From Fragilaria crotonensis (Eukaryota > Bacillariophyta > Fragilariophyceae > Fragilariales > Fragilariaceae): a DNA stretch of 54,550 bases. The notes below the pieces were generated by a model, which saw nothing but the letters and a program-made list of their open reading frames with translations, was not told where the DNA came from and searched no databases. Below, piece by piece: positions 4,142-54,550 of this stretch (position 1 is the stretch's first letter; each line of letters begins with the position of its first letter). The DNA lies in contig JAKSYS010000415.1 of the NCBI GenBank assembly GCA_022925895.1, positions 1-54,550 on the forward strand, in the 5' to 3' direction. The translations under genes were made by a program, and so were the position numbers.

Positions 4142-4987
4142 ATGAAGCTCGCTGTTCTCTTCACCTTCCTTGGCGTTACTGTTCAAGGTCTAGACGACAT
4201 CACTGTTGAAGATGATGTTTCTATCATTGAGGACACCCTTATGTTGGAGGCCACCACCAGCAGAGCGACGGTAGGTGTCCTCACTGTCGAAGTCAAGAGA
4301 TCCGATTCCGCTCGCACAACGGAGAAATCCGGCATTGCGATAGACCGATACCTCAAAAAGCGCAGGATGACCAAGGCACGGACCAAGGCACGGACCAAGG
4401 CACCGACCAAGGCACGGACCAAGGCACCGACCAAGGCACCGACCAAGGCACCAACCGCCGTACCGACCTCCGCACCGACCTCCGCACCAACCTCCGAACC
4501 ATCCGCCGCACCAACCTCCGCACCGACCTCCGCACCAACCTCCGCACCGACCTCCGCACCAACCTCCGCACCGACCTCCGCAGAGAATTTCGCACCGACT
4601 TCCGCACCGACTTCAGCACCAACCGCCACACCAACCTCCGCACCAACCTCCGCACCAACCTCCGCACCAACCTCCGCACCAACCTCCGCACCGACCTCCG
4701 CAGAGAATTTCGCACCGACTTCCGCACCGACTTCCGCACCGACTTCAGCACCAACCTCAGCACCAACCTCCGCACCAACCTCCGCTCCAACCTCCGCACC
4801 GACCAAGGCACCAACCGCCGGACCGACTTCCGCACCGACTTCCGCACCGACTTCCGCACCAACCGCCACACCGACCGCCACACCGACCGCCACACCGACC
4901 TCCGCACCAACCGCCACACCGACCTCAGCACCGACCTCAGCACCGACCTCGGCTCCGACCTCAGCACCTACAGCAGCTCCTGCCTAA
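4142..4987 (+). CDS. Secreted Pro-Thr-repeat protein, Hint domain lost (U1)
   Basis: The 281-residue ORF starts at an ATG in the context gctgccATGaag. An N-terminal signal peptide ([16 protein letters not shown]) is followed by an acidic segment of about 50 residues, a basic patch ([11 protein letters not shown]), and then about 180 residues of TKAP and TSAP repeats ending APTAAPA. The array stays in one frame. The N-terminus matches the Hint-domain gene at 49232, but the Hint and membrane parts are absent; the stop is created at the deletion junction. If translated it would be a secreted, probably O-glycosylated, disordered protein. Its upstream TATA-like motif differs from that of U2, U3 and U5 (ttacataaac), so expression is uncertain. 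Confidence 0.6.
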
Positions 4988-5111
4988 GGCAGTGTGAAGG
5001 CCAAAGCTGCTATTTCAAAGTACAGCACTGCTGAAAGTATTGGACTCTACCTCACCCTTGACAATTAAGTTATTTTTAATGTATTATCAACATCTTCCGA
5101 GACACGCCGTG

Positions 5112-5330
5112 TCAATATGAATTCCGAATAGAAGACACAAACTTTGAGTTGATTGGGGTTTGGCATTGAACCGTGACGCCACCATTACCATTGTCATTTC
5201 CTGCTTCAATCTCATGTTCTCGTTCCTTTTGTTGCGGCGACAGTGCGAGGATACATTCCATGACCTGTTGCACGACGGCAAAGTGATTCCGCTGAAGCGT
5301 CGAATGCAAGGTACGGATACAATCAGGCAT
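5112..5330 (-). pseudogene. 2OG dioxygenase fragment A (U1)
   Basis: The reverse strand encodes a stretch resembling residues ~135-180 of the dioxygenase at 52079-53530. ALSPQQKEREHE...GGVTVQ aligns with ALSPQQHQERREQ...GGVTVQ, and KVCVFYSEF (readable in U2 and U3) matches KVCVFYSDL. The frame is broken near 5160. It has no catalytic residues. The same fragment lies at the same place in U2, U3 and U4. Confidence 0.65.
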
Positions 5331-5477
5331 TGATAGGAGAAGAAGTCGAGAACAGTACGATGCTTACGCTGGTGCTGATCCAGATCGTGTCGAGTGCATG
5401 AGGTCTGGGAGTTTTATACCTGACAACACAATCTCGATGACTCGGGAGTGGTGGAGGAACAACATACAATACTTAAT

Positions 5478-6001
5478 TCAGTACTCTTGAACCATGATCG
5501 TGTTACCGAAGTAAATCAAGTCGCTGCGAGTCCAGCGGTTGCAGGTTCTTCGTCCGATCGACGGACTACTAGGCTCGCCTCCGCGGACAATTTTGATGTC
5601 CAAAGGAGCTGTTCCACATCTGCATATACGACCTTCTTGAAATGAGTCAGGAATCTCCTTCTTCTTGCCGCCATGATTTTTGCCTTTGTTGTCTAGCATG
5701 GAGCCCAGTCCTTTCGACAGTATTTTGTCGCCAAGTTTGAATCTTATCGTCATGTCCATGCTTGTGAAAAGGTTGTTGTCTCCATATTAATACCAATTCC
5801 GAATAAAAGACACACACTTTGTGGTGATTGAGGTTTAGCACTTGCACCGTGACATTACAAGTACTGGTGTCATCTCCTGCGATATTGCATGACTGTCGCT
5901 GTTCCTGCGGCAACAGGGCGGATGCCGTAATAGACGTCGGTCCACATGCTTTCCCGTCATTTTTGTTGGTACAGTAACCAAGATATTGCGAATGAGCTCA
6001 T
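5478..6001 (-). pseudogene. 2OG dioxygenase fragment B (U1)
   Basis: The reverse-strand translation carries ALLPQEQRQSCN, NVTVQVLNLNHHKVCVFYSE and LVLIWRQQPFHKHGHDDKIQ, which align with residues ~130-200 of the intact dioxygenase. The sequence then degenerates and the HxD iron-binding region is not recognisable. It is a second, independent fragment next to fragment A, so the ancestral unit carried two partial dioxygenase copies. The best open version of this fragment is in U3 (18404-18757). Confidence 0.65.
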
Positions 6002-6760: not shown

Positions 6761-6795
6761 TCTGTGGAGTGCTTTGGCATACTCACATTCATGCC

Positions 6796-6800
6796 TAACG
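6796..6800 (+). repeat. 5' target-site duplication (taacg)
   Basis: taacg lies directly before the LTR start tgacag and is repeated at 12731-12735 after the second LTR. Joining the flanks restores gcctaacgtgctacag, as seen uninterrupted in U2 (about 15787) and U4 (about 46190). Confidence 0.85.
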
Positions 6801-13254: not shown

Positions 13255-14004
13255 ATGAAGCTCGCTGTTCTCTTCACCTTCCTTGGCGTTACTGTTCAAG
13301 GTCTAGACGACATCACTGTTGAAGATGATGTTTCTATCGTTGAGGGCACCCTTATGTTGGAGGCCACCACCAACAAAGCGACGGTAGGTGTCCATACTGT
13401 CGAAGTCAAGAGATCCGATTCTGCTGCTCGCACAACGGAGAAATCCGGCATTGCGATAGACAGATACCTCAAAAAGCGCAAGAAGACCAAGGCACCGGCC
13501 AAGGCAGCGACCAAGAAACCGACCAAGGCACCGACCAAGGCACCGACCAAGGCACCGACCAAGGCACCGACCGGCACCGACCAAGGCACCAACCTCCGCA
13601 CCGACCTCCGCACCGACCTCCGCACCGACCTCCGCACCGACCTCCGCACCGACCTCCGCACCAACCTCCGCACCAACCTCCGCACCAACCTCCGCACCAA
13701 CCTCCGCACCAACCTCCGCACCAACCTCCGCTCCAACCTCCGCACCGACCAAGGCACCAACCGCCGGACCGACTTCCGCACCGACTTCCGCACCGACTTC
13801 CGCACCGACTTCCGCACCGACTTCCGCACCAACCTCCGCACCAACCTCCGCACCAACCTTCGCACCAACCTCTGCACCGACCAAGGCACCAACCTCCGCA
13901 CCAACCTCCGCACCGACCTCGGCTCCGACCTCAGCACCTACAGCAGCTCCGGCCTAAGGCAGTGTGAAGGCCAAAGCTGCTATTTCAAAGTACAGCACTG
14001 CTGA
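13255..14004 (+). pseudogene. Secreted PT-repeat protein, frameshifted in the array (U2)
   Basis: It has the same signal peptide and N-terminus as the U1 and U4 copies. After several TKAP repeats a 2-nt loss (accggcaccg in place of accaaggcaccg, near 13569) moves translation into another open frame of the repeat. The rest then reads as TNLRT and TDLRT repeats and ends [13 protein letters not shown]... past the normal stop. The ORF is 249 codons. Since every frame of the array is open, the shift did not truncate the ORF, but the product is basic and lacks the Pro-rich tract. A sequencing error in the repeat is an alternative. Confidence 0.65.
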
Positions 14005-14087: not shown

Positions 14088-14300
14088 TCAATATGAATTC
14101 CGAATAGAAGACACAAACTTTGAGTTGATTGGGGTTTGGGCATTGAACCGTGACGCCACCGTTACCATTGTCATTTCCTGCTTCAATCTCATGTTCTCGT
14201 TTCTTTTGTTGCGGCGACAGTGCGAGGATACATTCCATGACCTGTTGCACGACGGCAAAGTGATTCCGCTGAAAGCGTCGAATGCAAGGTACGGATACAA
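14088..14300 (-). pseudogene. 2OG dioxygenase fragment A (U2)
   Basis: This is the reverse-strand counterpart of fragment A in U1. The overlapping frame 14017-14412 reads LALSPQQKKREHEIEAGN, NGGVTVQCPNPNQLKVCVFYSE, aligning with the intact dioxygenase around residues 135-180. There is no iron-binding motif. Confidence 0.65.
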
Positions 14301-17014: not shown

Positions 17015-17806
17015 ATGAAGCTCGCTGTTCTCTTCACCTTCCTTGGCGTTACTGTTCAAGGTCTAGACGACATCACTGTTGAAGATGATGTTTCTATCGT
17101 TGAGGGCACCCTTATGTTGGAGGCCACCACCAACAAAGCGACGGTAGGTGTCCTTACTGTCGAAGTCAAGAGATCCGATTCTGCTGCTCGCACAACGGAG
17201 AAATCCGGCATTGCGATAGACAGATACCTCAAAAAGCGCAAGAAGACCAAGGCACCGGCCAAGGCAGCGACCAAGAAACCGACCAAGGCACCGACCAAGG
17301 CACCGACCAAGGCACCAACCTCCGCACCGAACCTCCGCACCGACCTCCGCACCAACCTCCGCACCGACCTCCGCACCAACCTCCGCACCAACCTCCGCAC
17401 CAACCTCCGCACCGACCTCCGCACCAACCTCCGCACCAACCGCCGCACCAACCGCCGCACCAACCTCCGCACCAACCTCCGCACCAACCTCCGCACCAAC
17501 CTCCGCACCAACCTCCGCACCAACCTCCGCACCAACCTCCGCACCAACCTCCGCACCAACCAAGGCACCAACCTCCGCACCAACCTCCGCACCAACCTCC
17601 GCACCAACCTCCGCACCAACCTCCGCACCAACCTCCGCACCAACCTCCGCACCAACCTCCGCACCGACCTCCGCACCAACCTCCGCACCAACCTCGGCTC
17701 CGACCTCAGCACCTACAGCAGCTCCTGCCTAAGGCAGTGTGAAGGCCAAAGCTGCTATTTCAAAGTACAGCACTGCCGAAAGTATTGGACTCTACCTCAC
17801 CCTTGA
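17015..17806 (+). pseudogene. Secreted PT-repeat protein, frameshifted in the array (U3)
   Basis: It has the same 16-residue signal peptide and N-terminal domain. A 1-nt insertion (ccgaacctccgc, near 17328) moves the array from TSAP into the NLRT frame, which runs through the normal stop to 17806 (263 codons). This break is independent of the one in U2. TATA box and octamers are intact. The likely ancestral product is the same short secreted protein as U1 and U4. Confidence 0.65.
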
Positions 17807-17862: not shown

Positions 17863-18075
17863 TCAATATGAATTCCGAATAGAAGACACAAACTTTGAGT
17901 TGATTGGGGTTTGGGCATTGAACCGTGACGCCACCATTACCATTGTCATTTCCTGCTTCAATCTCATGTTCTCGTTCCTTTTGTTGCGGCGACAGTGCGA
18001 GGATACATTCCATGACCTGTTGCACGACGGCAAAGTGATTCCGCTGAAAGCGTCGAATGCAAGGTACGGATACAA
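17863..18075 (-). pseudogene. 2OG dioxygenase fragment A (U3)
   Basis: This is the reverse-strand counterpart of fragment A in the other units. The overlapping frame 17792-18025 reads ILALSPQQKEREHE and PNPNQLKVCVFYSEF. It is not functional. Confidence 0.65.
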
Positions 18076-37851: not shown

Positions 37852-40149
37852 GTCGCGTGGATTGATGTTAAGGGGCGCGGGAAGGCTCGTGTTCCTAAGG
37901 ATGCGGGATGGATCATTCACCGGAGGTCGGTGAAACATTCCGCGTTGGGAGGAGTCACAGATGCAATTTTTTCGTGTTTCCTGGCAAGTCGTTTCAAGGA
38001 GGACTCAAACTGGAGTTTAGTGGCAAACGGGATTAAGACTAGTACTCTGCTCCAAGTCGTTGATCCAACCAACGGAGGTCCAAGCGTGTCAATTCCGAGT
38101 GAACACGATATGTCCGCAAAAGGGCTACAGTGGAATCGACGGTTCGCAAAGGTGAAAGTTCCTTCAGTCTACTCGAAAGACAAGTGGGCGGAGCGACGCC
38201 TCACCGATGTGGAGTTGGCCGATGTACTAGATCTACCTGGCACGTTGAGAAAACGCTTGAAACCCTCGCAGCTGGCGAAGGCGAGAGAGATGAGTGTCCC
38301 CGGGAAGGTAGTAGTCGCGTTGTTCGAATCGTTGTACGCGTTGGTTGCGGGGAACGTATGCGGAGGAAGAGAGGTGTCGAAATCCAAAGTCCACGAACAG
38401 CAAGGGTTGAAACGCAAATCTGAGGGTGGTGATATGCAAGGACCTCTTGGGTCGAAGAGATCTCGAGGAGTCGATGAGGATAGAAAGTCGGAGATGGTAC
38501 TTGTCGAATCAACTACGCTTGATCGTTGTACGGAATCTGCTCCCATTGGTAGCAACCGAAAAGGCAACGAACCCTTCCTCACAGTGTCGGACAAGGCAAC
38601 TAAGTCGGACGATGCGCCGGCTCCTATCCATCTCTTTGATAATCGGGTTTTAGATGCGCTACACGTAGAGGAGGAACAACGGTTGAAAGCGACGGAAGCA
38701 CTTGATGTACTCAGGCGTTTCGGTTTGAGACTGTGGAAGCGGAAGGTACGACGGAGTTTTGCAAATTGGTTAAGAAAGTGGGACTCAGGGGCGAAGACCG
38801 GGTGCAATGCAATGGTACAAGCCGGCTGGAATGCTTGCCGTCGCGCGGACGGGGCATCATGTTGGGATTGGGATGCTGGATCGGCGCTTTTGTTTTGGAG
38901 ATGGCCGGAGGACTATCAACGAGAGTCGTGGGAGGGGGTCGCCCCATATTTTATAGGTGAACTACCATCCTCCAAAAGCCCACAGCCTCCGTATGAGGTC
39001 GAAGAAGTCAGACGGAAAGTGTCGGCCAAACTCCAGAAGGTGTTGGATCGGCGGTATATCGAGGTAGTAAGAGATTCAGAGCTCAAGTCATACATGTTTA
39101 TGTTTGACGTTCCCAAGGGGGATTCGGATGTGAGGATGGTCTATGATGGATCAAAGAGTGGTTTCAATGATGCCACCTGGGCTCCCTGGTTTACACTCCC
39201 AACGGTCGAGGCCATGACTCGAACAGTGTTACCGTGGGGTTGGTGTGGTGATCGAGACTTTGGGGAAATGTTCTTGAACTTCCCTCTGCACCCAATGGCG
39301 CGATTGTACAGCGGTGTTGACTTGTCTCAGCTTACTCTAAATAAAGTTAAGCGAGTTGAGGAGGATCACTTTGTGGGTCAATGGACTCGGAATGCGATGG
39401 GACTTAAATCAAGCCCGTACCTGGCAGTTCAGGCGGCCACGAGAGTCAAACGCAAGTTCTTGGGCGACCAACATGATTCCAACAATCCGTTCCGTTGGAG
39501 CAGTTGCATTCTTAATTTACCAGGGAGTGCGGGCTATGATCCCACGATGCCGTGGATACAAAAGGGGAGGGAGGATGGATCCATTGCTACCGATCTACAC
39601 ATTTACGTAGATGATGTGAGGATAACCGGATCGTCTCAAGAATCAGTCTGGTGTGCAGGGTCAAGGGTGGCAAAACTTTGCAGCTTCTATGGTCTTCAAG
39701 ATGCTCCGCGGAAATTGAGAGAGCCGAGTCAAGATCCTGGAGCATGGGCAGGTTCGGTGGTGTCTACTTCGCACGGAGTTGTAACAAAATTTGTAACAAA
39801 GGAAAGATGGCGGAAGACACAGGGTTGCATACGCTGGTTGGCGAACAAGATTGGAATCCAGGGAGATCAATGGAGTGGTGGAATACCTGAAGATGAATAC
39901 TCGAAAGTGCCCCCTGCAGGAACTCTACCTCACAAGCAGGCAGAGCGCATTCGGGGTTTTTTGATTTATGTATCTCGGACCTACAAAGCCATGGTACCAT
40001 ATTTAAAAGGTTTGCACTTGACGTTGGATTTTTGGCGGGCCAACAGAGATGAGGAGGGATGGAGGTTGGTTGAGAGACGCCGAATTGGAGGGATCTATGC
40101 CAGTGGTGGAGATGGAGAAGGCCCCACGATTTGTCAAAGTGGCTCCTAG
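37852..40149 (+). CDS. pol: DIRS-like element Pol: reverse transcriptase
   Basis: The open frame carries a long N-terminal region with unknown fold and then the RT. Blocks seen are ELKSYMFMFDVPKGDSDVRM, VYDGSKSGFNDATWAPWF, WCGDRDFGEMFLNFPLHP, NAMGLKSSPYLAVQA and the catalytic YVDD at 39604-39615. The spacing and the F-DVPK...YDGS blocks are typical of DIRS-group RTs. Near 40065 the true protein leaves this frame (EEGWRL|RDAELEGS), so the last ~25 residues are not real. It lacks an ATG of its own because of the upstream TGA. Confidence 0.75.
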   Translation, partial: VAWIDVKGRGKARVPKDAGWIIHRRSVKHSALGGVTDAIFSCFLASRFKEDSNWSLVANGIKTSTLLQVVDPTNGGPSVSIPSEHDMSAKGLQWNRRFAKVKVPSVYSKDKWAERRLTDVELADVLDLPGTLRKRLKPSQLAKAREMSVPGKVVVALFESLYALVAGNVCGGREVSKSKVHEQQGLKRKSEGGDMQGPLGSKRSRGVDEDRKSEMVLVESTTLDRCTESAPIGSNRKGNEPFLTVSDKATKSDDAPAPIHLFDNRVLDALHVEEEQRLKATEALDVLRRFGLRLWKRKVRRSFANWLRKWDSGAKTGCNAMVQAGWNACRRADGASCWDWDAGSALLFWRWPEDYQRESWEGVAPYFIGELPSSKSPQPPYEVEEVRRKVSAKLQKVLDRRYIEVVRDSELKSYMFMFDVPKGDSDVRMVYDGSKSGFNDATWAPWFTLPTVEAMTRTVLPWGWCGDRDFGEMFLNFPLHPMARLYSGVDLSQLTLNKVKRVEEDHFVGQWTRNAMGLKSSPYLAVQAATRVKRKFLGDQHDSNNPFRWSSCILNLPGSAGYDPTMPWIQKGREDGSIATDLHIYVDDVRITGSSQESVWCAGSRVAKLCSFYGLQDAPRKLREPSQDPGAWAGSVVSTSHGVVTKFVTKERWRKTQGCIRWLANKIGIQGDQWSGGIPEDEYSKVPPAGTLPHKQAERIRGFLIYVSRTYKAMVPYLKGLHLTLDFWRANRDEEGWRLVERRRIGGIYASGGDGEGPTICQSGS

Positions 40150-41213
40150 GTTGGAAGCGGATTTAAAGGTACTCATGGATCTGACGGCTTTTGATGAAGC
40201 GCCATCGATCAATGTACGAGCAACTTGCACTGCTGCCGCGTATTTAGTGGGAGACGCGTCTGGTTCGGGATTGCCTCTGGGTGGACGGAGAAGAAGGGTT
40301 GGATATTGCCTTTGGTTCTTGGGATGGCAACTTGTCATCTCAATCGTCAAATTTTAGGGAGGGATACAATCTGATTCTGAGGTTGGAAGAGTTGTTGAAG
40401 TCGGGAAAGGTTAGATGTGGGACGGAACTTTGGGTCTTTACGGATAATGCGGTGTCGGAAAGTGCGTTCAACAAGGGTTCGAGCAAGTCCAAGCTACTTC
40501 ACGAATTGTGCTCCAGAGTGAGAAAGGCTGAAATGGCTTACAGCTTACAAGTTCAAGTCGTTTGGATTGCCGGAACGCGGATGATCTCACAAGGGACCGA
40601 CGGTCTCTCGCAAGGAGATTTAACCAGTGGAGTTATGGCAGGCGACGAATTCTTGTCACATATTCCATTAAATCAAGGAGCGTTTGATCGATCCCCAGAT
40701 TTGAAAGAGTGGTTGGAAACGGCACTTCCAAAGCAATGGGTCTGGTTGAGGACAGGAGAAGATTGGTATCGGCTCCCGTTTGATGATCCGTTGGGACGAT
40801 ATGTGTGGGCGCCACCTCCATGTCTTGCCGATGTTGCCCTTGAACAACTATGTGAAGCCAAACTGATACACCCGTTCACGAGTCATGTTTTTGTCTGTCC
40901 TGTTTTGTTTACTGGTCACTGGCGGAAACAGTTTGCAAAAGCTGTGGATGTTGAATTTGGAATTCCAGTTGGATCGCCTGTGTGGAACGAGTCGTGTCAC
41001 GAAAACCTTGTTGTCGGTCTAATGTGCCCTCTCTTGCGTTGCAGTCCTTGGGCCATCAAAAGGTCAGATAGAGCAGACCTGGACAAGTTCAGACATACGA
41101 TGCTTGGAATGCTCCGCGACGGTGACTCAGCTGCACGGAGTCATATGTGCAAATTTTGGAACTCAGCGTGGAGTAAAGCCGAGTTGGGCGTGCGAGGGAG
41201 CGTGGCATGGTAA
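40060..41213 (+). pseudogene. DIRS-like element Pol: RNase-H-like domain
   Basis: Two frames carry it: 40060-40275 (EKAPRFVKVAPRLEADLKVL, AAAYLVGDASGSG) and 40281-41213. The second has LDIAFGSWDGNLSSQSSNF, WVFTDNAVSESAFNKGSS and AGTRMISQGTDGLSQGDL, giving conserved Asp and Glu residues of an RNase-H-like fold as in DIRS elements. A Cys/His-containing C-terminal domain (HPFTSHVFVCPVLFTGHWRK) follows. Both frameshifts are also present in copy 1, except where copy 1 lacks the sequence. Confidence 0.7.
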
Positions 41214-41700
41214 ATGCTATAAACAAGGGGTGCGTGATGATTTTCCGGTACTCAATCAAGATGTTGAAGCGGAGGATCTGGTGTCTGATGACAAAACGGA
41301 AGATGATGATCCAGGGCGGTTCAAGGAAGCTAGAGACGGGGATCACCTCATTACTCCTTTTCAATGTGACTCTTGTCATTTCGAGAATTGTAAGAAGCGA
41401 TCTCCAATCGAAGGAAACTTGCAGGATGAAGTCGCGTTGCTGGGTATTCGATGGGCAAATCTGGACGCTCTCTGGTCGCGGGAGAGGTCAACTGTTCGAG
41501 CCAATAGATTACAGGGGAAAATGTGGATCTCCGTTAGTGAGAGTGCGGGCTGGACAGATTACGGGCTACCAAAGCGGGGCCCATATCCAGTCGAAGATAC
41601 CTTTGGAATGCAAGCTGCGGTCAATCTACTTCTGAGATCTAGGAGTGTTGGGATTAATTCCAGGACCATACAATATGAAACTACGCGAAACTACGTTTGA
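41104..41700 (+). pseudogene. DIRS-like element: zinc-finger-like start of the YR ORF
   Basis: This frame has no ATG. It reads CEGAWHGKCYKQGVRDDFPV, HLITPFQCDSCHFENCKKRS, LLGIRWANLDALWSRERSTV and GMQAAVNLLLRSRSVGINSR. The paired Cys and His residues suggest a zinc-binding region ahead of the recombinase core-binding domain. It overlaps the end of the RNase H frame by about 110 nt and shifts frame again near 41690 into the catalytic part. Confidence 0.6.
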
Positions 41701-42568
41701 TGGCCATGGGGATACATTCATGTCGGAAGATGGAAAAGGAGGTACGGTTTCGCGTTCTCCTACAAACTCACCCTGGTTCAAGAGGTTCATGCGTGGACTG
41801 CACAAGCGGATGGGTAATGTATGGATCCCGGATCGGGCTTTGTTGAAACAGGAATTCATGTATTGCTTGATCGTGTTGGAAGAGGATTGGGCTTGTTATT
41901 CAAACGTGGATGACGTCGGAGGAAAATCGAGAACAGCTTTGGTAGCCACTATGATGTTGGCGGGTTGGTTTGCAGCGCTGCGAGGAGAAGAGATCGTGAG
42001 AGTAGACGTCGGTCAGATGAGGAAGCATTGGGTAGAGAGCACGATGCTTCAAGAAGCACCTCACATCCCATTAATGCTATCAGGGCGATTCAAACGCGAA
42101 GTGGGGGAAAAGGTATTTTGCCAACCGTTGGCTATGGAATCGAAGTCCGGAATCAAGATTGGACAATGGTTTTGGAGAGCGTTAGAGATGTTAGGAGCAC
42201 AAGACGTTATGTCAGGGCCAATGTTCCGGGTCATGGGAAAGGAAGTCGGAACTTTTAAACGCGCAACCACAGCAGACCTCAATCCAAATTTCATAGACTT
42301 GCTCGAACGTGTTCGGAAGCGTTGGTCGAACGTGTTTGGGCAAGAAGTGAATATCAGAAAGGAATTCAGTATTGGACGATCCTTACGAAGAGGTGTGACC
42401 GCGGAAGCTCAAAACGTGGGCATCCCGAAGGAAGTTATTGAAGCCAACAACCGGTGGAGAAAACATGCGAGGTCGAAAGGATTGACTCCGGGGATGACAA
42501 TGATGGAACGGTATTCGGACGCAAAGGCAAGCGTTCCAACTCTTGTCAGATTTTCGAGTGAACTGTGA
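41645..42568 (+). CDS. Tyrosine recombinase (integrase) of the DIRS-like element
   Basis: The 307-codon frame holds the core-binding and catalytic domains. The first catalytic Arg is in GWFAALRGEEIVRVD (codon at 41981). The second cluster is in SIGRSLRRGVTAEAQNVG, and the nucleophile Tyr is in MMERYSDAKASVP (codon at 42512). YR enzymes integrate circular double-stranded cDNA by site-specific recombination and leave no target duplication, which fits the junctions of this element. The formal start ATG 41645 is not necessarily the real one, as the domain joins the preceding frame (IQYETTR). Confidence 0.75.
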   Translation: MLGLIPGPYNMKLRETTFDGHGDTFMSEDGKGGTVSRSPTNSPWFKRFMRGLHKRMGNVWIPDRALLKQEFMYCLIVLEEDWACYSNVDDVGGKSRTALVATMMLAGWFAALRGEEIVRVDVGQMRKHWVESTMLQEAPHIPLMLSGRFKREVGEKVFCQPLAMESKSGIKIGQWFWRALEMLGAQDVMSGPMFRVMGKEVGTFKRATTADLNPNFIDLLERVRKRWSNVFGQEVNIRKEFSIGRSLRRGVTAEAQNVGIPKEVIEANNRWRKHARSKGLTPGMTMMERYSDAKASVPTLVRFSSEL

Positions 42569-43203
42569 GTGAGGAAGGAAGGATACCCAACTTTCTTGAA
42601 GCTGGCAATCGGACGTTGTTGACCGGCGAATTGCTCAAGCTAAACCGACGAGAGAAAGTTGGGAAGGGAAGAATGATTTGTGTCGAAAGGGGGATTTTTG
42701 CGCTAAGAACAATATTGTTGTTCAAGGCCCTTGTTTTGCGATGATCGCCAGGACTATCGATCAAACTCTATGTAATGGAATCGGACAAGTCTGATTTGCT
42801 ATCAGTCAAGTCCGGACAAGGAGATGCACGTATCGCGTACCCTTGTCGGAAAAGCAAACCCAATGGGAATGAACTTGAACATGGATTTCAAGTCGGGCTT
42901 TTCATTAATGGATATGACATAAAGGGGCATCGAATTAATGGCAATCGGAGACCACTTCTGGAATTCGATTCCGGAATGGGAAACAATTGGTATTCAAGTC
43001 ACGAATCCAAAACATGGAAAAGGGATTTGGGATGTGACACGCCACCCCCAGCTTGGGACGGAGGTTCAAATGCATAGGGACCCCCGTCGCTCGGTTTTAA
43101 GTTTTGATACAAAGAGTCTTTAAATTTATGAGGGAATTGACTTCACCCGCGGATTCTAGCAACTGTACGAAGTATACTTGAAGGTTGTAAAGTCTAAGGT
43201 ACC
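42569..43203 (+). other. 3' non-coding region of the DIRS-like element
   Basis: About 635 nt after the recombinase stop hold only short ORFs. Two similar segments, atggaatcggacaag...tatcagtcaagtccggacaag, lie near 42775-42825. It probably contains the element's 3' terminal repeat. It is shared with 3259-3886. Confidence 0.5.
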
Positions 43204-43255
43204 TTTATCGAACTTTTCCAAGGTAAGAATCATCCGTCACGAACGGATTTGAACG
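43204..43255 (+). repeat. 3' LTR of the outer Copia element, second part
   Basis: ttatcgaacttttccaagg to gatttgaacg matches the last ~51 bp of the 5' LTR at 22008-22058. Together with 34815-34929 it rebuilds a full LTR. Confidence 0.7.
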
Positions 43256-43460
43256 CTGAGATGTACGAGTAGTTCGAGTATTGGTAGTTGTAGTTTTCTA
43301 CGTCCTTCCAAGGTCCATTAGGGAAAAGGTACTAGTACGTGTAAGCTACAGTACCTGTCACCACGACAACAATTTCGCACATTCGCACATTCGCACAACA
43401 TATACACGTTATTGGGAGACACGATTTACATAAACAAGTCTATCCAAACCTTCCGCTGCC

Positions 43461-44378
43461 ATGAAGCTCGCTGTTCTCTTCACCTTCCTTGGCGTTACTG
43501 TTCAAGGTCTAGACGACATCACTGTTGAAGATGATGTTTCTATCATTGAGGACACCCTTATGTTGGAGGCCACCACCAGCAGAGCGACGGTAGGTGTCCT
43601 CACTGTCGAAGTCAAGAGATCCGATTCCGCTCGCACAACGGAGAAATCCGGCATTGCGATAGACCGATACCTCAAAAAGCGCAGGATGACCAAGGCACGG
43701 ACCAAGGCACGGACCAAGGCACGGACCAAGGCACGGACCAAGGCACCGACCAAGGCACGGACCAAGGCACCGACCAAGGCACCGACCAAGGCACCAACCG
43801 CCGTACCGACCTCCGCACCGACCTCCGCACCAACCTCCGAACCATCCGCCGCACCAACCTCCGCACCGACCTCCGCACCAACCTCCGCACCGACCTCCGC
43901 AGAGAATTTCGCACCGACTTCCGCACCGACTTCAGCACCAACCGCCACACCAACCTCCGCACCAACCTCCGCACCAACCTCCGCACCAACCTCCGCACCA
44001 ACCTCCGCACCAACCTCCGCACCGACCTCCGCAGAGAATTTCGCACCGACTTCCGCACCGACTTCCGCACCGACTTCCGCACCGACTTCCGCACCGACTT
44101 CAGCACCAACCTCAGCACCAACCTCCGCACCAACCTCCGCACCAACCTCCGCTCCAACCTCCGCACCGACCAAGGCACCAACCGCCGGACCGACTTCCGC
44201 ACCGACTTCCGCACCGACTTCCGCACCAACCGCCACACCGACCGCCACACCGACCGCCACACCGACCTCCGCACCAATCGCCACACCGACCTCAGCACCG
44301 ACCTCAGCACCGACCTCAGCACCGACCTCAGCACCGACCTCGGCTCCGACCTCAGCACCTACAGCAGCTCCTGCCTAA
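43461..44378 (+). CDS. Secreted Pro-Thr-repeat protein, Hint domain lost (U4)
   Basis: The 305-residue ORF is the same protein as in U1 with about 24 more residues, from extra TKAR/TSAP repeats. Signal peptide, acidic segment and basic patch are identical. Two [12 protein letters not shown] insertions interrupt the array, as in U1. It ends [11 protein letters not shown] at the shared deletion junction. Upstream the TATA motif is replaced by tttacataaac. It is open throughout in a single frame, which may reflect selection or recent duplication. Confidence 0.6.
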
Positions 44379-44507
44379 GGCAGTGTGAAGGCCAAAGCTG
44401 CTATTTCAAAGTACAGCACTGCTGAAAGTATTGGACTCTACCTCACCCTTGACAATTAAGTTATTTTTAATGTATTATCAACATCTTCCGAGACACGCCG
44501 TGTCAAT

Positions 44508-44722
44508 ATGAATTCCGAATAGAAGACACAAACTTTGAGTTGATTGGGGTTTCGGCATTGAACCGTGACGCCACCATTACCATTGTCATTTCCTGCTTCA
44601 ATCTCATGTTCTCGTTCCTTTTGTTGCGGCGACAGTGCGAGGATACATTCCATGACCTGTTGCACGACGGCAAAGTGATTCCGCTGAAGCGTCGAATGCA
44701 AGGTACGGATACAATCAGGCAT
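44508..44722 (-). pseudogene. 2OG dioxygenase fragment A (U4)
   Basis: The - strand frame 44456-44722 reads ILALSPQQKEREHEIEAGND, GGVTVQCRNPNQLKVCVFYS, aligned with the intact enzyme around residues 135-180. It has no catalytic residues. Confidence 0.65.
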
Positions 44723-44872
44723 TGATAGGAGAAGAAGTCGAGAACAGTACGATGCTTACGCTGTGTGCTGATCCAGATCGTGTCGAGTGCATGAGGGGTC
44801 TGGGAGTTTTATACCTGACAACACAATCTCGATGACTCGGGAGTGGTGGAGGAACAACATACAATACTTAAT

Positions 44873-45396
44873 TCAGTACTCTTGAACCATGATCGTGTTA
44901 CCGAAGTAAATCAAGTCGCTGCGAGTCCAGCGGTTGCAGGTTCTTCGTCCGATCGACGGACTACTAGGCTCGCCTCCGCGGACAATTTTGATGTCCAAAG
45001 GAGCTGTTCCACATCTGCATATACGACCTTCTTGAAATGAGTCAGGAATCTCCTTCTTCTTGCCGCCATGATTTTTGCCTTTGTTGTCTAGCATGGAGCC
45101 CAGTCCTTTCGACAGTATTTTGTCGCCAAGTTTGAATCTTATCGTCATGTCCATGCTTGTGAAAAGGTTGTTGTCTCCATATTAATACCAATTCCGAATA
45201 AAAGACACACACTTTGTGGTGATTGAGGTTTAGCACTTGCACCGTGACATTACAAGTACTGGTGTCATCTCCTGCGATATTGCATGACTGTCGCTGTTCC
45301 TGCGGCAACAGGGCGGATGCCGTAATAGACGTCGGTCCACATGCTTTCCCGTCATTTTTGTTGGTACAGTAACCAAGATATTGCGAATGAGCTCAT
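44873..45396 (-). pseudogene. 2OG dioxygenase fragment B (U4)
   Basis: Counterpart of fragment B in the other units, nearly identical to U1. The HHKVCVFYSELVLIW block is readable at 45042-45308; the remainder has diverged. Confidence 0.65.
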
Positions 45397-45868
45397 TTCT
45401 TCATGTACAGTTCGTCATGGTGATGTCAATACAGATAGAACGTAGAGAAAAAAGTTCTTATTCCGAGCCTGAAGCAGGAGCGCATCGAGGGAAACACGGC
45501 TCCGGTGGGAGAGATCGCCCAATGGGAAGCGTGCTGCAAACAGGTAGATTGAAACTTGATGAAGGCCTTCTCCCTGTGGCTTCGAATCTGGTCCCTGACA
45601 TGGCGGCGGCGGCGGCGTGCGATTGAGAATTGTGATTGAAGATGAATTTTGAAGGACGGAAAGCGACGCCTCAAAGAAGTATATGCTGACTTACCTCAGG
45701 TCAAGGCGTGCGTTAGCCACGTCATTTTGAGCGCCAGTCTTCTGCTTTTACAAGGTGGCTGTTCATTCGTGCCAGTCTGTATTGTGCTTTCATCGTCGTG
45801 TTGTTTTGCGGAATAATCGCGAACTCTTATTCAATGTTGCTGTGCGATTGGCTTCAAGTGCAACGTAG

Positions 45869-46153
45869 TTGAATCACGCATGCGCATGGTTACATCTGAA
45901 ACCGAAGACCATGCACTTTCCGCAATTGACGATAAGTAAGGATGGCAGCATTATTTGCTGCGATGCTGCATGCCCTTTGGAGGCACTCCCTCTAAATGCC
46001 CTCATGACGGGACATGTGCACGTTGCTGTAAGTGGTATTCATGATACTGAGCAACGAAACGTTTTAATGACATACTTGACGTTAATTGGTACGCATTTAC
46101 ACATGATCCATGACGCATCTGACGAATCTTCGAACGAAAACATCCGACTCTAG
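45869..46153 (+). pseudogene. Small conserved ORF without ATG (U4)
   Basis: The frame encodes the CCDAACPLEALPLNALMTGH peptide described at 6485, but enters from a different upstream frame because three nucleotides differ (gataagtaagg). No ATG opens it. It is repeated at 48053-48337. Confidence 0.3.
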
Positions 46154-46306
46154 TCTGGAGTGCTTTGGCATATCATACTCACATTCAAGCCTAACGTGCT
46201 ACAGTAGGAGTTTACTACTTGCATAGTACTTGTACTACTCTCTTAATATACATGCAACAGGACCTGGACGAAATCGAACCTTCTTATTCTTTTTTATATA
46301 TATATC

Positions 46307-46644
46307 CTACTATATTATAAATTAATTGTGTGCGTGTGTGCGTGCGTGCGTCCGTCTGTTACGGAGTATGACCACTCTGGGGTACTGGATCAAATGAATA
46401 CTGTCTCATACTCGGAGTATGATATATGTCATACATGCATACTGGAGTACTCCGTAAGCGATGTCGGTAAGATTTGCATATACGTAGTTGCGTCAGTGCG
46501 TGCGTCTGTTACGGAGTATGACCACTCTGGGGTACTGCACTACTTGCGTATAGTACTGAACTGTACAAACAGTACACACAACCGTGCACAACCCATACCG
46601 TACACGTATTCCAAAAGTCCGACCAATTGGGAGGTACCCACTAG
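46307..46644 (+). mobile_element. ~340-bp repeat element, orientation A
   Basis: It interrupts the host sequence ttttttatatatatatctaaag. It begins ctactatattat and ends gtacccactag, flanked by tatatc on both sides (46301-46306, 46645-46650). Inside, cgtctgttacggagtatgac...ggggtactg occurs twice about 150 bp apart. An inverted copy is at 48481-48838 in the equivalent host position. It has no ORF of note. Confidence 0.6.
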
Positions 46645-46683
46645 TATATCTAAAGATTCCGTTGCCAACTTGGAAAATGGATC

Positions 46684-48480: not shown

Positions 48481-48838
48481 CTAGTAGTGGGTACCTCCCA
48501 ATTGGTCGGACTTTTGGAATACGTGTACGGTATGGGTTGTGCACGGTTGTGTGTACTGTTTGTACAGTTCAGTACTATGCGCAAGTAGTGCAGTAACCCA
48601 GAGTGGTCATACTCTGTAACAGACGCACGCACTGACGCAACTACTTTTTTATGCAAATCTTACCGACATCGCTTACGGAGTATATATGACATACTTGTAC
48701 TCCAGCATGCATGTATGACATATACTCATATACTATATACTCCGAGTATGAGACAGTATTCATTTGATCCAGTACGCCAGAGTGGTCATACTCCGTAACA
48801 CACGGACGCACGCACACAATTAATTTATGATATAGTAG
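48481..48838 (-). mobile_element. ~350-bp repeat element, orientation B
   Basis: This is the inverted copy of 46307-46644. It begins ctagtagtgggtacc and ends tatagtag, and sits at the same host site (between tttttatatata and tatctaaagattcc) in the second spacer copy. Sequence identity to copy A is high but with small indels. Confidence 0.6.
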
Positions 48839-49195
48839 GATATCTAAAGATTCCGTTGCCAACTTGGAAAATGGATCCAAACAAGATCCAAGTTTTCGTC
48901 ATAATACGGACACTACACACTCGGTAAAGAGAGAGAATGTGGAACTATATGAACATCGATGATTGATGAGTTTCACAACAGGAATCTTGAGTCTTGACTC
49001 GTCCCCAGAATGCCGGTGTACGTCTGATGTCATCTTGAACTCTCAGATGAAGTTCGAGTATTGGTAGTTGTAGTTTTCTACGTCCTTCCAACGTCCATTA
49101 GGGAAAAGGTACGTGTAAGCTACCTGTCACCACGACAACAAGAATTCGCAAATTCGCACATTCGAACAACATTTACACTTTATTGGGAGACACGA

Positions 49196-49205
49196 TATAT
49201 ATAAA
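49196..49205 (+). promoter_or_regulatory. TATA box of the Hint gene
   Basis: tatatataaa lies 27-36 nt before ATG 49232. Only two or three attcgcac octamers precede it (49143-49168), fewer than in U2. Confidence 0.5.
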
Positions 49206-49231
49206 CACGTCTATCCAAACCTTCCGCTGCC

Positions 49232-51516
49232 ATGAAGCTCGCTGTTCTCTTCACCTTCCTTGGCGTTACTGTTCAAGGTCTAGACGACATCACTGTTGAA
49301 GATGATGTTTCTATCGTTGAGGGCACCCTTATGTTGGAGGCCACCACCAACAAAGCGACGGTAGGTGTCCTTACTGTCGAAGTCAAGAGATCCGATTCTG
49401 CTGCTCGCACAACGGAGAAATCCGGCATTGCGATAGACAGATACCTCAAAAAGCGCAAGACGACCAAGGCACCGGCCTAGGCAGCGACCAAGGCACCGAA
49501 GGCAGCGACCAAGGCACCGAAGGCAGCGACCAAGGCACCGAAGGCAGCGACCAAGGCACCGACCAAGGCACCGACCAAGGCACCGACCAAGGCACCGACC
49601 AAGGCACCGACCAAGGCACCGACCAAGGCACCGACCAAGGCACCGACCTCCGTACCGACCTCCGTACCGACCTCCGTACCGACCTCCGTACCGACCTCCG
49701 TACCGACCTCCGTACCGACCTCCGTACCGACCTCCGCACCAACCGCCGCACCAACCTCCGCACCAACCGCTGCACCAACCGCTGTGCACCAGCCGCCGCA
49801 CCAACCTCCGCACCAACCTCCGCTCCAACCTCCGCTCCAACCTCCGCTCCAACCTCCGCTCCAACCTCCGCACCAACCTCCGCACCGACCAAGGCACCAA
49901 CCGCCGCACCGACCTCGAACCGACCTCCGCACCGACCTCCGCACCAACTGCCGCACCAACCTCCGCACCAACCTCCGCACCAACCTCCGCACCAACCTCC
50001 GCACCAACCTCCGCACCAACCTCCGCACCAACCTCCGCACCAACCTCCGCACCAACCTCCGCACCAATCTCGCGCCAACCTCCGCACCGACCAAGGCACC
50101 AACCGCCGCACCGACCTCCACACCAACCGCGCACCAACCGCCGCACCAACCTCCGCACCAACCGCCGCACAACCTCCGCACCAACCTCCGCACCAACCTC
50201 CGCACCAACCTCCGCACCAACCTCCGCACCAACCTCCGCACCAACCTCCGCGCCAACCTCCGCGCAACCTCGCACCAACCTCCGCACCAACCTCCGCACC
50301 AACCTCCGCACCAACCTCTGCACCAACCTCCGCACCAACCTCCGCTCCAACCTCCGCAGCAACCTCCGCACCAACCTCCGCAGCGACCTCCGCACCGACC
50401 TCCGCACCGACCGCCGCACCAACCGCCGCACCAACCGCCGCACCAACCGCCGCACCAACCTCCGCATCAACCTCCGCACCAACCTCCGCACCAACCTCCG
50501 CACCGACCTCGGCACCTACATCGGAACCAACCTCCGCACCAACCTCCGCACCAACCTCCGCACCCACCGCCGCACCCACCGCCGCACCCACCGCCGCACC
50601 CACCGCCGCACCAACCTCCGCACCAACCGCCGCACCGACCTCGGCACCTACATCGGAACCTACAGCGTCGCCAGCATGCTTCCCTGGCGACGCAATCGTC
50701 ACGGTCGAAGGCAAGGGTCAAGTGGAAATGAGGGATCTCATGATTGGCGACCGTGTCCTAGGCATGGGTGGGAAATTCCAATCTATCTACGCCTTCGGTC
50801 ACTGGTCTACTAACAGGACCTCTCAGTACATTCGCCTCTACACCAACGCTTCCAGTACACCACTCGAGCTCTCATCACGACATTATGTCTTTCTCTACGA
50901 ACAGCAGGAAATCCCTGCGGTTCCTGCCTTGTTGAAGGTCGGTGACGTCCTTTTGGGGTCAGATCCCACTCGGGCCGCACTGGAGATTATCAAGATTGAA
51001 ACTGCTACGAAAGATGGTGTATTTGCACCATTGACAGTCGATGGCACCATTGCCGTGAATGGAGTTGTGGCCTCCAGCTATGTTTTCCAAACATGGTATT
51101 CTCTCGATCAACCACATGACTACCTTTATTTCTTGGGCTGGTACAAGATCATGTCCCACAAAACCTTCAGTCATATGAGGCTCAGTCCCCTTCGGTTTGC
51201 GTCCATGGGAATCTCTCCTTGGTTTGGTACCATTGCTGACAAGGAAGGTAGGAACATTCTCAGCTGTGCCTACGCGCATGCCGGCACATGGATGCATTCC
51301 AGCACTCATGGCTTCGGTGTTGTGGCATTGGGAACTGTGCTCTTTTATGGCTTGTGTGGAATTTCTTTGTTTTCTTACTTCATCGAGTGTCTTGTTGGAC
51401 CAGTCATGGGTCCATCTGTCATTGCTCTCATTATCGTCGCATCCATGGTGGCATTCAAGAAGCAGCATCAGACCAAAGCGACTGCGGGTAGTAGTAAGAA
51501 GGTCAAGATTCATTAG
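49232..51516 (+). CDS. Secreted PT-linker Hint (Hedgehog/intein-like) protein
   Basis: The N-terminus has the same signal peptide and acidic segment as U1-U4. After [10 protein letters not shown] a TAG stop (49478-49480; AAG in U2 and U3) interrupts the frame, and several 1-2 nt indels lie in the 1.2-kb [12 protein letters not shown] array. The Hint domain is intact in one frame from 50677 to 51516: [16 protein letters not shown] with the nucleophile Cys, [17 protein letters not shown] with the conserved His, and VNGVVASSY. Two hydrophobic helices ([35 protein letters not shown]) and a basic tail follow. Hint domains self-cleave, as in Hedgehog. As sequenced the gene is broken; errors in the array are a plausible cause. 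Confidence 0.65.
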
Positions 51517-52078
51517 GTTGTGCTCCACCGGAGTGCGTTTTATGTACGTTACTACCGCGAAAGGCAGTGTGAAGGCCAAAGCATCCATTTCAAAGTACAG
51601 CAGTGGCGAAAGTATTCGACTCTACCTTACTTGTATAATTAGGTAATTTTTCCTGTGATATTGACATCGTACAAGAAAGATCTTTTATCTTGTATTACAT
51701 GAAGCATGATGCCCCGACTGCTTCGGTCACTGTATGTTGGTGAAGTCGATGGAATCTTGAGAGGCAGAAAGAACGCGCGCGAGGCAGCTGTATTCTTGGC
51801 GTACTATCACACGACCATTTTTCTAACTAGTGGACTTTCGGTCAAAGTTCCGATGCTGCAATGTGCGCAGCCTGGCTCACGAATAGTTTCAAGAAAGCAC
51901 ACAAGGATGCGGCGCTTATGGTCTTGTGTGTTTTCATCAAGCCATGTATAGGGAAACGGGCGTATCGACCATGAGCATTTGCCTTGTGGCATGTTATCCT
52001 TCTTGCCATGACAGGAATTCCGCCATTCACCCAATCAATTGCCTTACATTATGATTCATAGTACCTTCGTTTATTGCA
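51517..52078. other. Convergent intergenic region
   Basis: It separates the 3' ends of the Hint gene and the dioxygenase. 51563-51640 (ggcagtgtgaaggccaaagc...) is the sequence found directly after the stop of the truncated PT genes, which locates their deletion junction. 51700-52030 holds a - strand frame (HKANAHGRYARFPIHGLMKT) that may be a gene remnant but is not recognised. Confidence 0.45.
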
Positions 52079-53530
52079 TTAGTTGTAGTTGTTGGATGAT
52101 GATGATCGAGAGGCTGATGTTTCTTGACAATGACGATAAAATCTCTCGGCAACGTACTTCTCTAATCCAAGATCCATCATCATGGTCACCACTGTCACCT
52201 CACCAAGAGACATTAATGTCGTCAGGGGCATACTGGGGTCTATGTCAAGTTGTTGCAACACAGCAATTAGTGTTTCCAGATTGTCGTGATGATCATCTTC
52301 CATGTCAACCGATTGCGCAAGTTGGTCCAGAACAGTTTGGACTGTCATGGGGAGTAGATCTGCAGGTCTCGATGCTTGGTTGTCATCATGATCATCATCC
52401 TGGGTCGGTAGTAGTAGTAGTGAGGAGGAGACCGTCTTGTCGGACGTGTGATTCGTTTCTGTCGCCACGTTCTGGATTGGAAACATGACATCACTTCGCA
52501 ACACGAATTTAGTACCACCACCACTATGAGCACCACAGTTCTGGTCGTCAACATTTAGTGTCAAGCCTTGACTGGCATGATACAGTTCGTGATTGAATAC
52601 AAGGAATTTGCCTAATTTGGGCACAACCTCCAACATGTTCTCGGACGGTTGTAAGGAATTCAAAAATACTGTGTTCCCACCATGAAAGTGGACCCCACCA
52701 CCTGTATTCAAGTAGAGGAGGATGGTAAGTTTGCTTTCGTACATCTTCTTGTCTTTGGTCGTTGTTGTTGTTGTTGTTGTGGCATCGTAATGTGGAAGAA
52801 AAATATCATGATCGGCAGTATCATAGCGCAGCAACCGCAACCGTGGGTTGATCCGGTAATCATACGATGATGATGTTGACGAATCGTCCTTTTTTCCCTG
52901 AATACCATTCTTACGACACCATGATTGAATCGCCTCGTCAATTCCAGCCTTCTGGAAGGCTTGTTGCAACCATATCAACACCAAATCCGAATAAAAGACA
53001 CACACTTTGTGATGATTGGGGTTCAGTAATTGAACCGTGACGCCACCATCACTGCCATCTCCCGCTGCAACATTTCGTTGTTCTCGTCGTTCCTGATGTT
53101 GTTGTGGAGACAGGGCGGCTGCTGTAACGTATGTTGGTCCAAATGTTTTCCCACCATTATTGGTAGTTCGATAACCAAGATTGTGAATGATATAAGAGCA
53201 TTGTGCGGGAGAAAGTAGCAGTGACCTTGTTTCGAGCAACAGCGGAGTGTGGGGAGTGAGAGGTCGATGACAATGCCGTGGTGGGGTGTGATGTACTGCC
53301 GTTGTCGTAGTTGTGCTGCTTGTCATGGTACCATCATTACTGCCACTGGCACTGTCACAAGTACTGGAACCATCTTCCGTGTCGTGATGATGGCTCTCAT
53401 GATCCTCAGAGTCCGTGTCGCCGTCATCATCATCATCATCGGCGTCTATAACTAGTTTATCGACACCCAGAATCTCAAACAGAGCTTCATCTGCAGAGCT
53501 TATTGAGAGCCTTGGACTGGACTTGGTCAT
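52079..53530 (-). CDS. 2-oxoglutarate/Fe(II) dioxygenase, prolyl hydroxylase-like
   Basis: The 483-codon ORF starts at 53530. The first ~110 residues are acidic and low-complexity (DADDDDDDGDTDSEDHES). The double-stranded beta-helix core has the HxD iron site in FLPHYD (His247, Asp249), LTILLYLN, GGNTVFLNSL, the distal His in NHELYHASQG (about His318) and the 2OG-binding Arg in FVLRSDVMF. These are the residues needed for a prolyl-4-hydroxylase-type reaction. The last ~100 residues are an unrecognised helical domain. There is no signal peptide, so it is probably cytosolic or nuclear. Fragments of it occur in every other unit. Confidence 0.85.
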   Translation of the reverse strand: MTKSSPRLSISSADEALFEILGVDKLVIDADDDDDDGDTDSEDHESHHHDTEDGSSTCDSASGSNDGTMTSSTTTTTAVHHTPPRHCHRPLTPHTPLLLETRSLLLSPAQCSYIIHNLGYRTTNNGGKTFGPTYVTAAALSPQQHQERREQRNVAAGDGSDGGVTVQLLNPNHHKVCVFYSDLVLIWLQQAFQKAGIDEAIQSWCRKNGIQGKKDDSSTSSSYDYRINPRLRLLRYDTADHDIFLPHYDATTTTTTTTKDKKMYESKLTILLYLNTGGGVHFHGGNTVFLNSLQPSENMLEVVPKLGKFLVFNHELYHASQGLTLNVDDQNCGAHSGGGTKFVLRSDVMFPIQNVATETNHTSDKTVSSSLLLLPTQDDDHDDNQASRPADLLPMTVQTVLDQLAQSVDMEDDHHDNLETLIAVLQQLDIDPSMPLTTLMSLGEVTVVTMMMDLGLEKYVAERFYRHCQETSASRSSSSNNYN

Positions 53531-53893
53531 GGGCTGAACGACTGTATTAAGGACGATGAAGGGTTTAAGTGGACGTAAATGCGAGTCTGTCAGTTACCAG
53601 TTGACTCTACTACCGGTAGTAGAGCCTATCATACTGACTACCGATGTACCGTGACGCAAACTACCGTGAACCCACCTACCGCCGCGTACCGGCCTACCGT
53701 GAACCAATCTACCGGTACATGTAGTGCGAACCAAACTACCATCTACCTTGTGGGGGTTTCGTGAAGAAATAAATGATACCAGTATTTCGGAAAAGTGAAC
53801 AGGCTTCTCGATTCTCTGAATTGACAATAAATCGTCTAGGCAAGCAGAGCTCACAATTAATTCATACTTGAACATTTTCATCAAGGCAAATTC
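53531..53893. promoter_or_regulatory. Divergent promoter region with palindrome and ctaccg array
   Basis: It lies between the dioxygenase start (- strand) and the U6 gene (+ strand). ctctactaccggtagtagag at 53605-53624 is a perfect 20-bp palindrome. It is followed by degenerate copies of ctaccgtgaacc and ctaccg to about 53750. Both are candidate regulatory sites. Confidence 0.4.
53605..53624. repeat. Perfect 20-bp palindrome
   Basis: ctctactacc is followed by its exact reverse complement ggtagtagag, with no spacer. Confidence 0.9.
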
Positions 53894-54418
53894 ATGAAGC
53901 TCATTCTTCACTTTGCCATCCTCGTAGCTGTTGCTACAGCTCAAGGTTTTGACATCACTATCGATGCGATTTCCATTCTCGTCAAGGAGGCTACAATCGA
54001 AGGTGTCTTCCCCGTCAAGGTCGAGCGATCCATTTCGGATGTGACCACCGGTACCCGTGGCCTCAAGTTGGTGCCAACCAAACGCAACAAGGGCAAGAAA
54101 ACACCACCCACAGCATCTCCAACATCACAGCCTAGCCCAGCAGAGGTGGTGCCAAGCCTAGAGCCCATACCACTACAGCCTGTCCCACGGTCTACCCCAG
54201 AGGCTACTACCCGAGCAGAATGCTTCCCTAGTAATGATGCCCAGTACGTCATGGTGGACACAGTGAGAATTTGTCATGTCACGATTGGTGACCGTGTTCT
54301 TGGGAGGATGGGTGAGAAGAGTGGTAATGTCAAGATCAACATCCATGAGATAGTTGTGCTTGTACCGATGAAGTGCTTCAGAAACGTACTTGTAAAACAC
54401 TTCATTTTTGAATATTGA
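53894..54418 (+). pseudogene. Divergent Hint-family gene, truncated (U6)
   Basis: ATG 53894 opens a 174-codon frame with a signal peptide (MKLILHFAILVAVATAQG), a segment like that of U1-U5, a short Pro-rich linker (PTASPTSQPSPAEVVPS) and the start of a Hint domain: AECFPSNDAQY, then TIGDRVLGRMGEKSGN. After about 54330 the sequence no longer resembles Hint and instead matches reverse-strand dioxygenase sequence. A deletion has fused the two convergent genes. The linker is much shorter and less regular than in U1-U5. Confidence 0.65.
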
Positions 54419-54550
54419 TATTGCTTGTTGTAATCGTTGTGGCGTTGTTGTAGTCGTTGTGGCATAACAGCATGTGGTAGAAAAAAATGGCAACATCAGC
54501 AGCCTCGCCGTAGTAGGCGCAGTAAACAAAATCGTGGGTTGATCTGATCC
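54330..54550 (-). pseudogene. 2OG dioxygenase fragment of U6
   Basis: The - strand reads YKYVSEALHRYKHN near 54370-54415, like EKYVAERFYRHCQE at the end of the intact enzyme. At 54420-54550 it reads QINPRF and FFLPHAVMPQ, like RINPRLRLLRYD and FLPHYDATT. The C-terminal segment and the HxD region are thus adjacent, with ~150 residues deleted. The iron-binding Asp is not preserved. The gene continues beyond the window. Confidence 0.55.

Follow-up and report, generated by a model that had tools for sequence, protein, structure and literature searches.

The closest described systems are the Hint (Hog) domain of Hedgehog proteins and the Hog proteins of protists and algae. Asp303 of fly Hedgehog activates the sterol, and an engineered D303H enzyme accepts a wider sterol range (PMC9163320), with structure and activity kept after the swap (PMC9163320; likewise PMC8529194). 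In the Hog domains of moss and red algae the motif-J Cys is described as changed to Ser, Thr or Asp (PMC2362128), and in diatoms expansions of the Hint family (IPR001767) to more than 290 genes in Pleurosigma pacificum and 112 in Seminavis robusta are reported (PMC12803021). Here we analyzed a locus of the diatom Fragilaria crotonensis at which a gene with a signal peptide, a Pro-Thr (PT) linker and a Hint domain lies tail to tail with a gene for a 2-oxoglutarate (2OG)/Fe(II) dioxygenase. The window is the entire contig JAKSYS010000415.1 (C354; 54,550 bases), the pair lies in its unit U5, and genome searches covered the 62.1-Mb assembly of 881 contigs. The Hint and 2OG loci listed from these searches are lower bounds, as only top-scoring candidates were scored.

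The convergent pair is real and old within one array family, and it is best read as neighbours copied together. With a probability of about 0.68, two unrelated convergent genes were duplicated jointly in a retroelement-rich array, most copies then decaying, the Hint gene encoding a Hog-like self-cutting precursor and the other gene a PF13640 hydroxylase that stays inside the cell and probably acts on something other than the PT linker. The precursor would comprise a signal peptide, a small N-terminal domain, the PT linker, Hint and a membrane hairpin. Hint would most likely cut itself off at its first Cys and so free the PT part from the membrane anchor; the acceptor, given a His in place of fly Asp303, may be water or a sterol-like molecule. 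The features of U5 were as follows.

49232..49477, + strand: signal peptide and small N-terminal domain, 82 codons; relatives in U1-U4, C87b, C173, C152 and C626
49481..50676, + strand: PT linker of 12-bp repeats, with six APT frame changes as assembled
50677..51513, + strand: Hint domain and C-terminal tail (PF01079; hedgehog 1at0/6tyy; hydropathy), stop codon at 51514-51516
50677-51084, + strand: Hint residues 1-136
about 51304-51471, + strand: hydrophobic stretch in the Hint tail, probably a hairpin (hydropathy)
52082..53530, - strand: 2OG/Fe(II) dioxygenase, 483 aa, without a signal-peptide-like N-terminus; PF13640 stretch at about 52571-52834

The Hint domain of U5 matched PF01079 with an E value of 9.6e-22 (78.1 bits; curated cut-off 29.7) and, by phmmer, the hedgehog structures 1at0 (E 3e-8) and 6tyy (E 2.1e-9). 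The 82-aa N-terminal part matched no Pfam family at E <= 1 and hence no Hedge domain. In the genome this part had nine matches at E <= 0.01, namely those in U1-U5, C87b, C173, C152 and C626, and its match in C87a was weak (E 0.001). The earlier note on this DNA had proposed a secreted PT and Hint protein facing a dioxygenase in U5. The Hint domain and the convergent dioxygenase stand, with stop codons about 560 bp apart, but a single open frame does not. Translation from the signal-peptide ATG at 49232 stops at TAG 49478-49480, and before the Hint frame is reached the APT repeats pass through frames 0-2-1-0-2-1-2, so that U5 as assembled has no single frame from signal peptide through PT linker to Hint. 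Single open frames of this composition were present at C87b and C173 (544 and 579 aa), and both proteins also carry the C-terminal hydrophobic stretch by hydropathy.

These lesions raise the alternative that the entire U5 unit is non-functional, with both genes left as remnants while the array decays. Two points fit such decay: the TAG arose by substitution, the same codon being AAG (Lys) in U2 and U3, and the contig abounds in duplications and in long open reading frames (ORFs) resembling retroelement polyproteins. The relic reading is opposed by the open frames that persist, 483 aa for the dioxygenase and 279 aa for Hint, and by the assembly itself. When C173 and C626, which represent one locus, were compared, blastn gave 99.2% identity with 8 mismatches and 40 gap openings, and MAFFT gave 22 mismatches with 30 gap runs in C626 vs 4 in C173, indicating that deletion-type consensus errors occur in this assembly. 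Consensus errors may also explain the frame changes in the U5 linker, and we consider it unlikely that the unit is wholly a relic. The two contigs (stretches L019 for C173 and L023 for C626) are near-identical and differ chiefly by gaps in C626.

A 266-aa core of the U5 dioxygenase matched PF13640 (2OG-FeII_Oxy_3) with 28.8 bits, just above the cut-off of 27, and the full-length 483-aa ORF matched no Pfam family at E <= 1. The NCBIfam FlmC 2OG-Fe(II) oxygenase was matched at E 4.6e-4, below its cut-off. A PHROGs family labelled 'DNA endonuclease V' (E 5.7e-4, residues 245-322) was disregarded, as both PF13640 and NCBIfam point to a 2OG oxygenase. ORFs reached 296 aa at most when 51517-53893 was mononucleotide-shuffled 300 times, so the 483-aa frame is not due to chance. 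Its G+C by codon position is 0.55/0.41/0.44, close to the 0.56/0.41/0.48 of the C494 dioxygenase and the 0.56/0.40/0.47 of a Cupin_8 gene at C173. H247 and D249 (HxD) and Lys341 align with paralogues; the candidate distal His, H318, does not. The Arg of LRSDVM was rejected as the 2OG anchor, as the paralogue alignment puts Lys341 at that position. The nearest paralogue found was C494 (30% identity over 128 positions). By sequence, the sole PDB match of the dioxygenase was an unrelated chain (FAM175B, E 0.62). Single-protein queries of viral contigs, which reach close relatives only, confirmed no relative of either the Hint protein or the dioxygenase core, and a phage search gave one match at E 0.2. 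AlphaFold2 single-sequence models of the two proteins had mean predicted local distance difference test scores of 31.7 and 38.1 and were not used.

The other units of the window and contig C87 hold partial copies of this arrangement.

4142..4984, + strand: U1 signal peptide and PT, open frame, without Hint
13255..13953, + strand: U2 signal peptide and PT, one frame change, without Hint
17015..17728, + strand: U3 signal peptide and PT, one frame change, without Hint
43461..44375, + strand: U4 signal peptide and PT, open frame, without Hint
5112..5247, - strand: dioxygenase fragment a of U1, 75-76% DNA identity to U5
14088-14224, 17863-17999, 44503-44639: fragments a of U2-U4, 75-76% DNA identity to U5
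5731..5995, - strand: dioxygenase fragment b of U1, about 71% DNA identity to U5; same fragment in C87
14713-14978, 18488-18751, 45126-45390: fragments b of U2-U4, about 71% DNA identity to U5
53894..54319, + strand: U6 signal peptide, short Pro/Ser/Thr linker and first ~33 Hint residues (from the Cys at 54221)
54444..54544, - strand: U6 dioxygenase-like stretch, not open, at the contig end (71% over 101 bp)

Fragments of both genes had been claimed for U1-U4 and U6. For U1-U4 this holds for the dioxygenase pieces and for the signal peptide and PT parts; it fails for Hint, as the genome search gave no Hint match in C354 besides that of U5. The b fragments correspond to about residues 118-211 of the U5 dioxygenase, in its N-terminal half. 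In U6, which is cut by the end of the contig and thus of the window, the evidence is weak for both genes: the Hint piece covers about 33 residues at 39% identity (E 0.016), and the dioxygenase-like stretch has an E value of 4.6e-6 as DNA with the low-complexity filter off and 0.035 as protein. The open signal-peptide and PT frames at 4142-4984 and 43461-44375 could encode secreted PT proteins for which self-cleavage is not needed.

A whole-genome tblastn search with the U5 dioxygenase gave 10 matches: eight in C354 (self included), one fragment, spread over two frames, beside the Hint copy C87a, and one weak match, C494. C87a was rejected as an independent second case. An alignment of 3,279 positions gives 96.8% identity between C87:1-3236 and window positions 9017-5748, which places C87a in the duplicating DNA of C354. 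Besides most of a b fragment and the block beyond it, this 3.2-kb stretch includes the first part of a long retroelement-like ORF. C87a gave no match over U5 positions 52068-52807, which hold most of the dioxygenase catalytic half. As all close dioxygenase copies lie in one array family (C354 and the C87 end), the recurrence counts once.

Within that family the linkage is old. When the b fragments of C87, U1, U2 and U4 (74-90 codons; U3 left out) were compared with the U5 dioxygenase, synonymous divergence (dS) was 0.77-0.88 and the nonsynonymous-to-synonymous ratio (dN/dS) 0.28-0.34; fragment a of U1 gave a dS of 0.30 and a dN/dS of 0.54 over 16 codons. These values indicate an enzyme constrained for much of the time that the linkage has lasted. 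Set against the 98-99% protein identity of the signal-peptide domains of U2, U3 and U5, they bear out the proposal that the two genes were already paired before U1-U4 were duplicated. In the Hint region, dS was 0.30 for U5 vs C87a and 0.79 for U5 vs C173. The mismatch between 0.77 for the dioxygenase and 0.30 for Hint points to unequal exchange or to more than one ancestral dioxygenase copy. The Hint family is under purifying selection, with a dN/dS in four pairs of 0.24-0.27 in the Hint module and 0.28-0.67 in the tail. The ~7 kb at the contig start (window positions 1-6802) are repeated ~39 kb further along, at 38991-46198, with 97-98% identity, which makes U1 and U4 recent duplicates of one another. 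Just before U5 lies a 163-nt inverted repeat (46484-46646 / 48482-48644) whose arms are 98% complementary and 1.8 kb apart.

Neighbours were compared across 29 Hint loci and 110 2OG loci from PF13640, PF13621, PF03171, PF02373 and PF05721, with the U5 gene, missed by the PF13640 listing, added by hand and the C87 fragment excluded. PF13532 (7 matches) lay outside the 110, and none of its contigs carries a Hint locus. A 2OG gene was found within 3 kb at four of the 29 Hint loci: C354 (PF13640) and C173, C152 and C626 (Cupin_8). Among the matches listed, no PF13640 gene lay within 3 kb of any of the 29 loci other than C354; the other PF13640 matches listed numbered at least 53, the nearest being 17.9 kb from a Hint locus. 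A PF13640 profile built from six sequences found no core at E <= 1 in eight Hint-locus stretches (L017-L024). As another tblastn search did not list the known relative C494, it is the profile searches that carry this negative result. Taken strictly, as the same family in this genome, the suggestion that a dioxygenase of this type recurs at Hint loci met with no case outside the array family.

The Cupin_8 neighbours belong to near-copies, C173 being 99.2% identical in DNA to C626 and 95.4% to C152, so that two independent loci with a 2OG neighbour remain, not four.

L019:5547-7091, convergent with the Hint gene of C173: Cupin_8/JmjC-type 2OG gene (E 4.4e-29), near-copies in L020 and L023

This gene lies 1.2 kb from the Hint match, and its protein has no meaningful sequence match to the U5 dioxygenase. 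Both the C354 and the C173 loci fall in the Hint subfamily that shares the N-terminal domain of U5. At C87b, the third locus of that subfamily, no 2OG gene was found nearby in the 2OG lists or the profile search, and the ORF in the 3' flank looks retroelement-like by eye. By a Poisson estimate for the 29 loci, 0.077 convergent 2OG genes within 3 kb are expected (P(>=2) 0.003, P(>=1) 0.07), and 0.31 in any orientation (P(>=2) 0.04, P(>=1) 0.27). The subfamily might therefore tend to lie tail to tail with 2OG genes of any family, PF13640 in the array and Cupin_8 at C173, tied by oxygen- or iron-dependent regulation or by convergent transcription. In its favour, each of the four Hint loci that have a 2OG gene closer than 3 kb is convergent with it and in this subfamily, against an expectation of 0.077. 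Such a tie is countered by the reduction to two independent loci, by the higher any-orientation expectation, by C87b and by a 2OG class that was widened after the data had been seen. We regard a tie of this kind as improbable. The convergent neighbour at C173 is curious and, set post hoc against chance, borderline, because the class was broadened with the data in view and the Hint loci include several near-copies; a looser link between Hint and 2OG genes is possible on the evidence of this one genome. Whether convergent 2OG neighbours at two unrelated loci exceed chance can be tested.

The active site was compared in an alignment of 25 Hint copies from the 29 loci (C152, C626, C444 and C12b left out), several of them near-copies. 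The nucleophile Cys1 was present in 25/25, partly by construction, since 19 were chosen by a start at Cys. The TxxH-type His was found in 24 of the 25 (one gap), its motif beginning with Ser in 23 and Thr in 2. At the general-base position of fly Asp303 (D46), 24 of the 25 copies have His and C876 has Tyr. In the phmmer alignments the same U5 residue pairs with the Asp of 1at0 and the His of 6tyy, which we take to be the engineered mutant. Cys at the Cys400 (C143) position was found in none of 23 aligned copies, the residues being Ser (18), Asn (4) and Thr (1); C313 is there read past a probable frame change. The natural His at the Asp303 position is perhaps the most useful outcome, a counterpart of the engineered swap, and transfer of the alga's own sterols by Hint proteins carrying it can be tested. 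A bolder proposal, which we hold to be quite improbable, is that the subfamily forms a natural 'D303H' Hog family that frees mucin-like PT proteins and joins them to a non-cholesterol sterol, its loci repeatedly retaining a tail-to-tail 2OG gene, from PF13640 or Cupin_8, that partners Hint in function or regulation.

The tempting story was that of an enzyme and its substrate, in which prolines in the PT linker are hydroxylated by the dioxygenase ahead of glycosylation and the genes stay linked so as to be inherited or regulated together. PF13640 includes prolyl 4-hydroxylases, and Lys341 aligns with the Lys of paralogues C284 and C61, which by eye resemble that type; the convergent pair in U5 and the fragments in U1-U4, U6 and C87 also accord with it. 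The enzyme, as had been noted earlier, has no visible signal peptide. By hydropathy rather than a dedicated predictor, the best 15-residue value within its first 45 aa was 1.36 (residue 16), and -0.31 in the Cupin_8 protein, vs 1.97, 2.37 and 2.47 for the Hint-protein signal peptides of U5, C87b and C173. No Met lies upstream of the dioxygenase start in the open, unspliced frame up to 53593. In plants, proline hydroxylation of secreted hydroxyproline-rich proteins is placed in the endoplasmic reticulum (PMC7773692), so an enzyme with such an N-terminus is unlikely to meet a secreted PT linker. Intactness is also uncoupled: open genes of the full composition (C87b, C173) lack a PF13640 dioxygenase, and the only intact dioxygenase (U5) stands beside a Hint gene broken as assembled. 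Given one array family, searches that turned up no PF13640 neighbour at other Hint loci, C87b and C173 included, and none of the at least 53 other listed PF13640 matches within 17 kb of a Hint locus, the enzyme-substrate pair fails the strict test in this genome, the compartment is probably wrong, and we consider this explanation very unlikely.

Against the reading of the pair as neighbours copied together, several points have to be weighed. The PF13640 list missed the gene of U5 itself, so a neighbour elsewhere could be missed as well. The locus C173, of the same Hint subfamily and outside this array, faces a convergent 2OG gene, a second case somewhat surprising vs the expected 0.077. With Hint genes beside it, the dioxygenase region kept a dN/dS of about 0.3 as it diverged, a sign of constraint. 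A 19-residue hydropathy test (> 1.6) found nothing in either 2OG protein and misses the signal peptide of U5 as well, so that the negative for the dioxygenase relies on the 15-residue values and the sequence.

Compared with known systems, the Hint proteins resemble the Hedgehog Hint/Hog domain (PF01079; 1at0, 6tyy) in a profile score above the cut-off, in Cys1, in (S/T)xxH and in a predicted secreted precursor; unlike Hedgehog, they have no Hedge domain that was found, His for Asp303, Ser, Asn or Thr for Cys400, and a C-terminal hydrophobic stretch. The U5 dioxygenase resembles 2OG-FeII_Oxy_3 oxygenases in a core above the PF13640 cut-off, in the HxD of H247/D249 and in Lys341, which lines up with a Lys in two paralogues; unlike these and secretory prolyl 4-hydroxylases, it has no signal-peptide-like N-terminus, an N-terminal half of its own and 30% identity to the nearest paralogue found. 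A large Hint family is shared with P. pacificum and S. robusta, for which the relevant passage of PMC12803021 is silent on neighbours, active-site residues and PT linkers. In some protist and algal Hog proteins, too, Hog is preceded by a signal peptide and an N-terminus specific to the lineage (PMC2362128), as described in a paper whose main text does not contain the words diatom, heterokont or stramenopile. From the Hog proteins as that paper describes them, those of F. crotonensis differ by the PT linker and the terminal hydrophobic stretch. If motif-J Cys in PMC2362128 corresponds to the Cys400 position, as it probably does, its replacement here is in line with the change in moss and red algal Hog domains.

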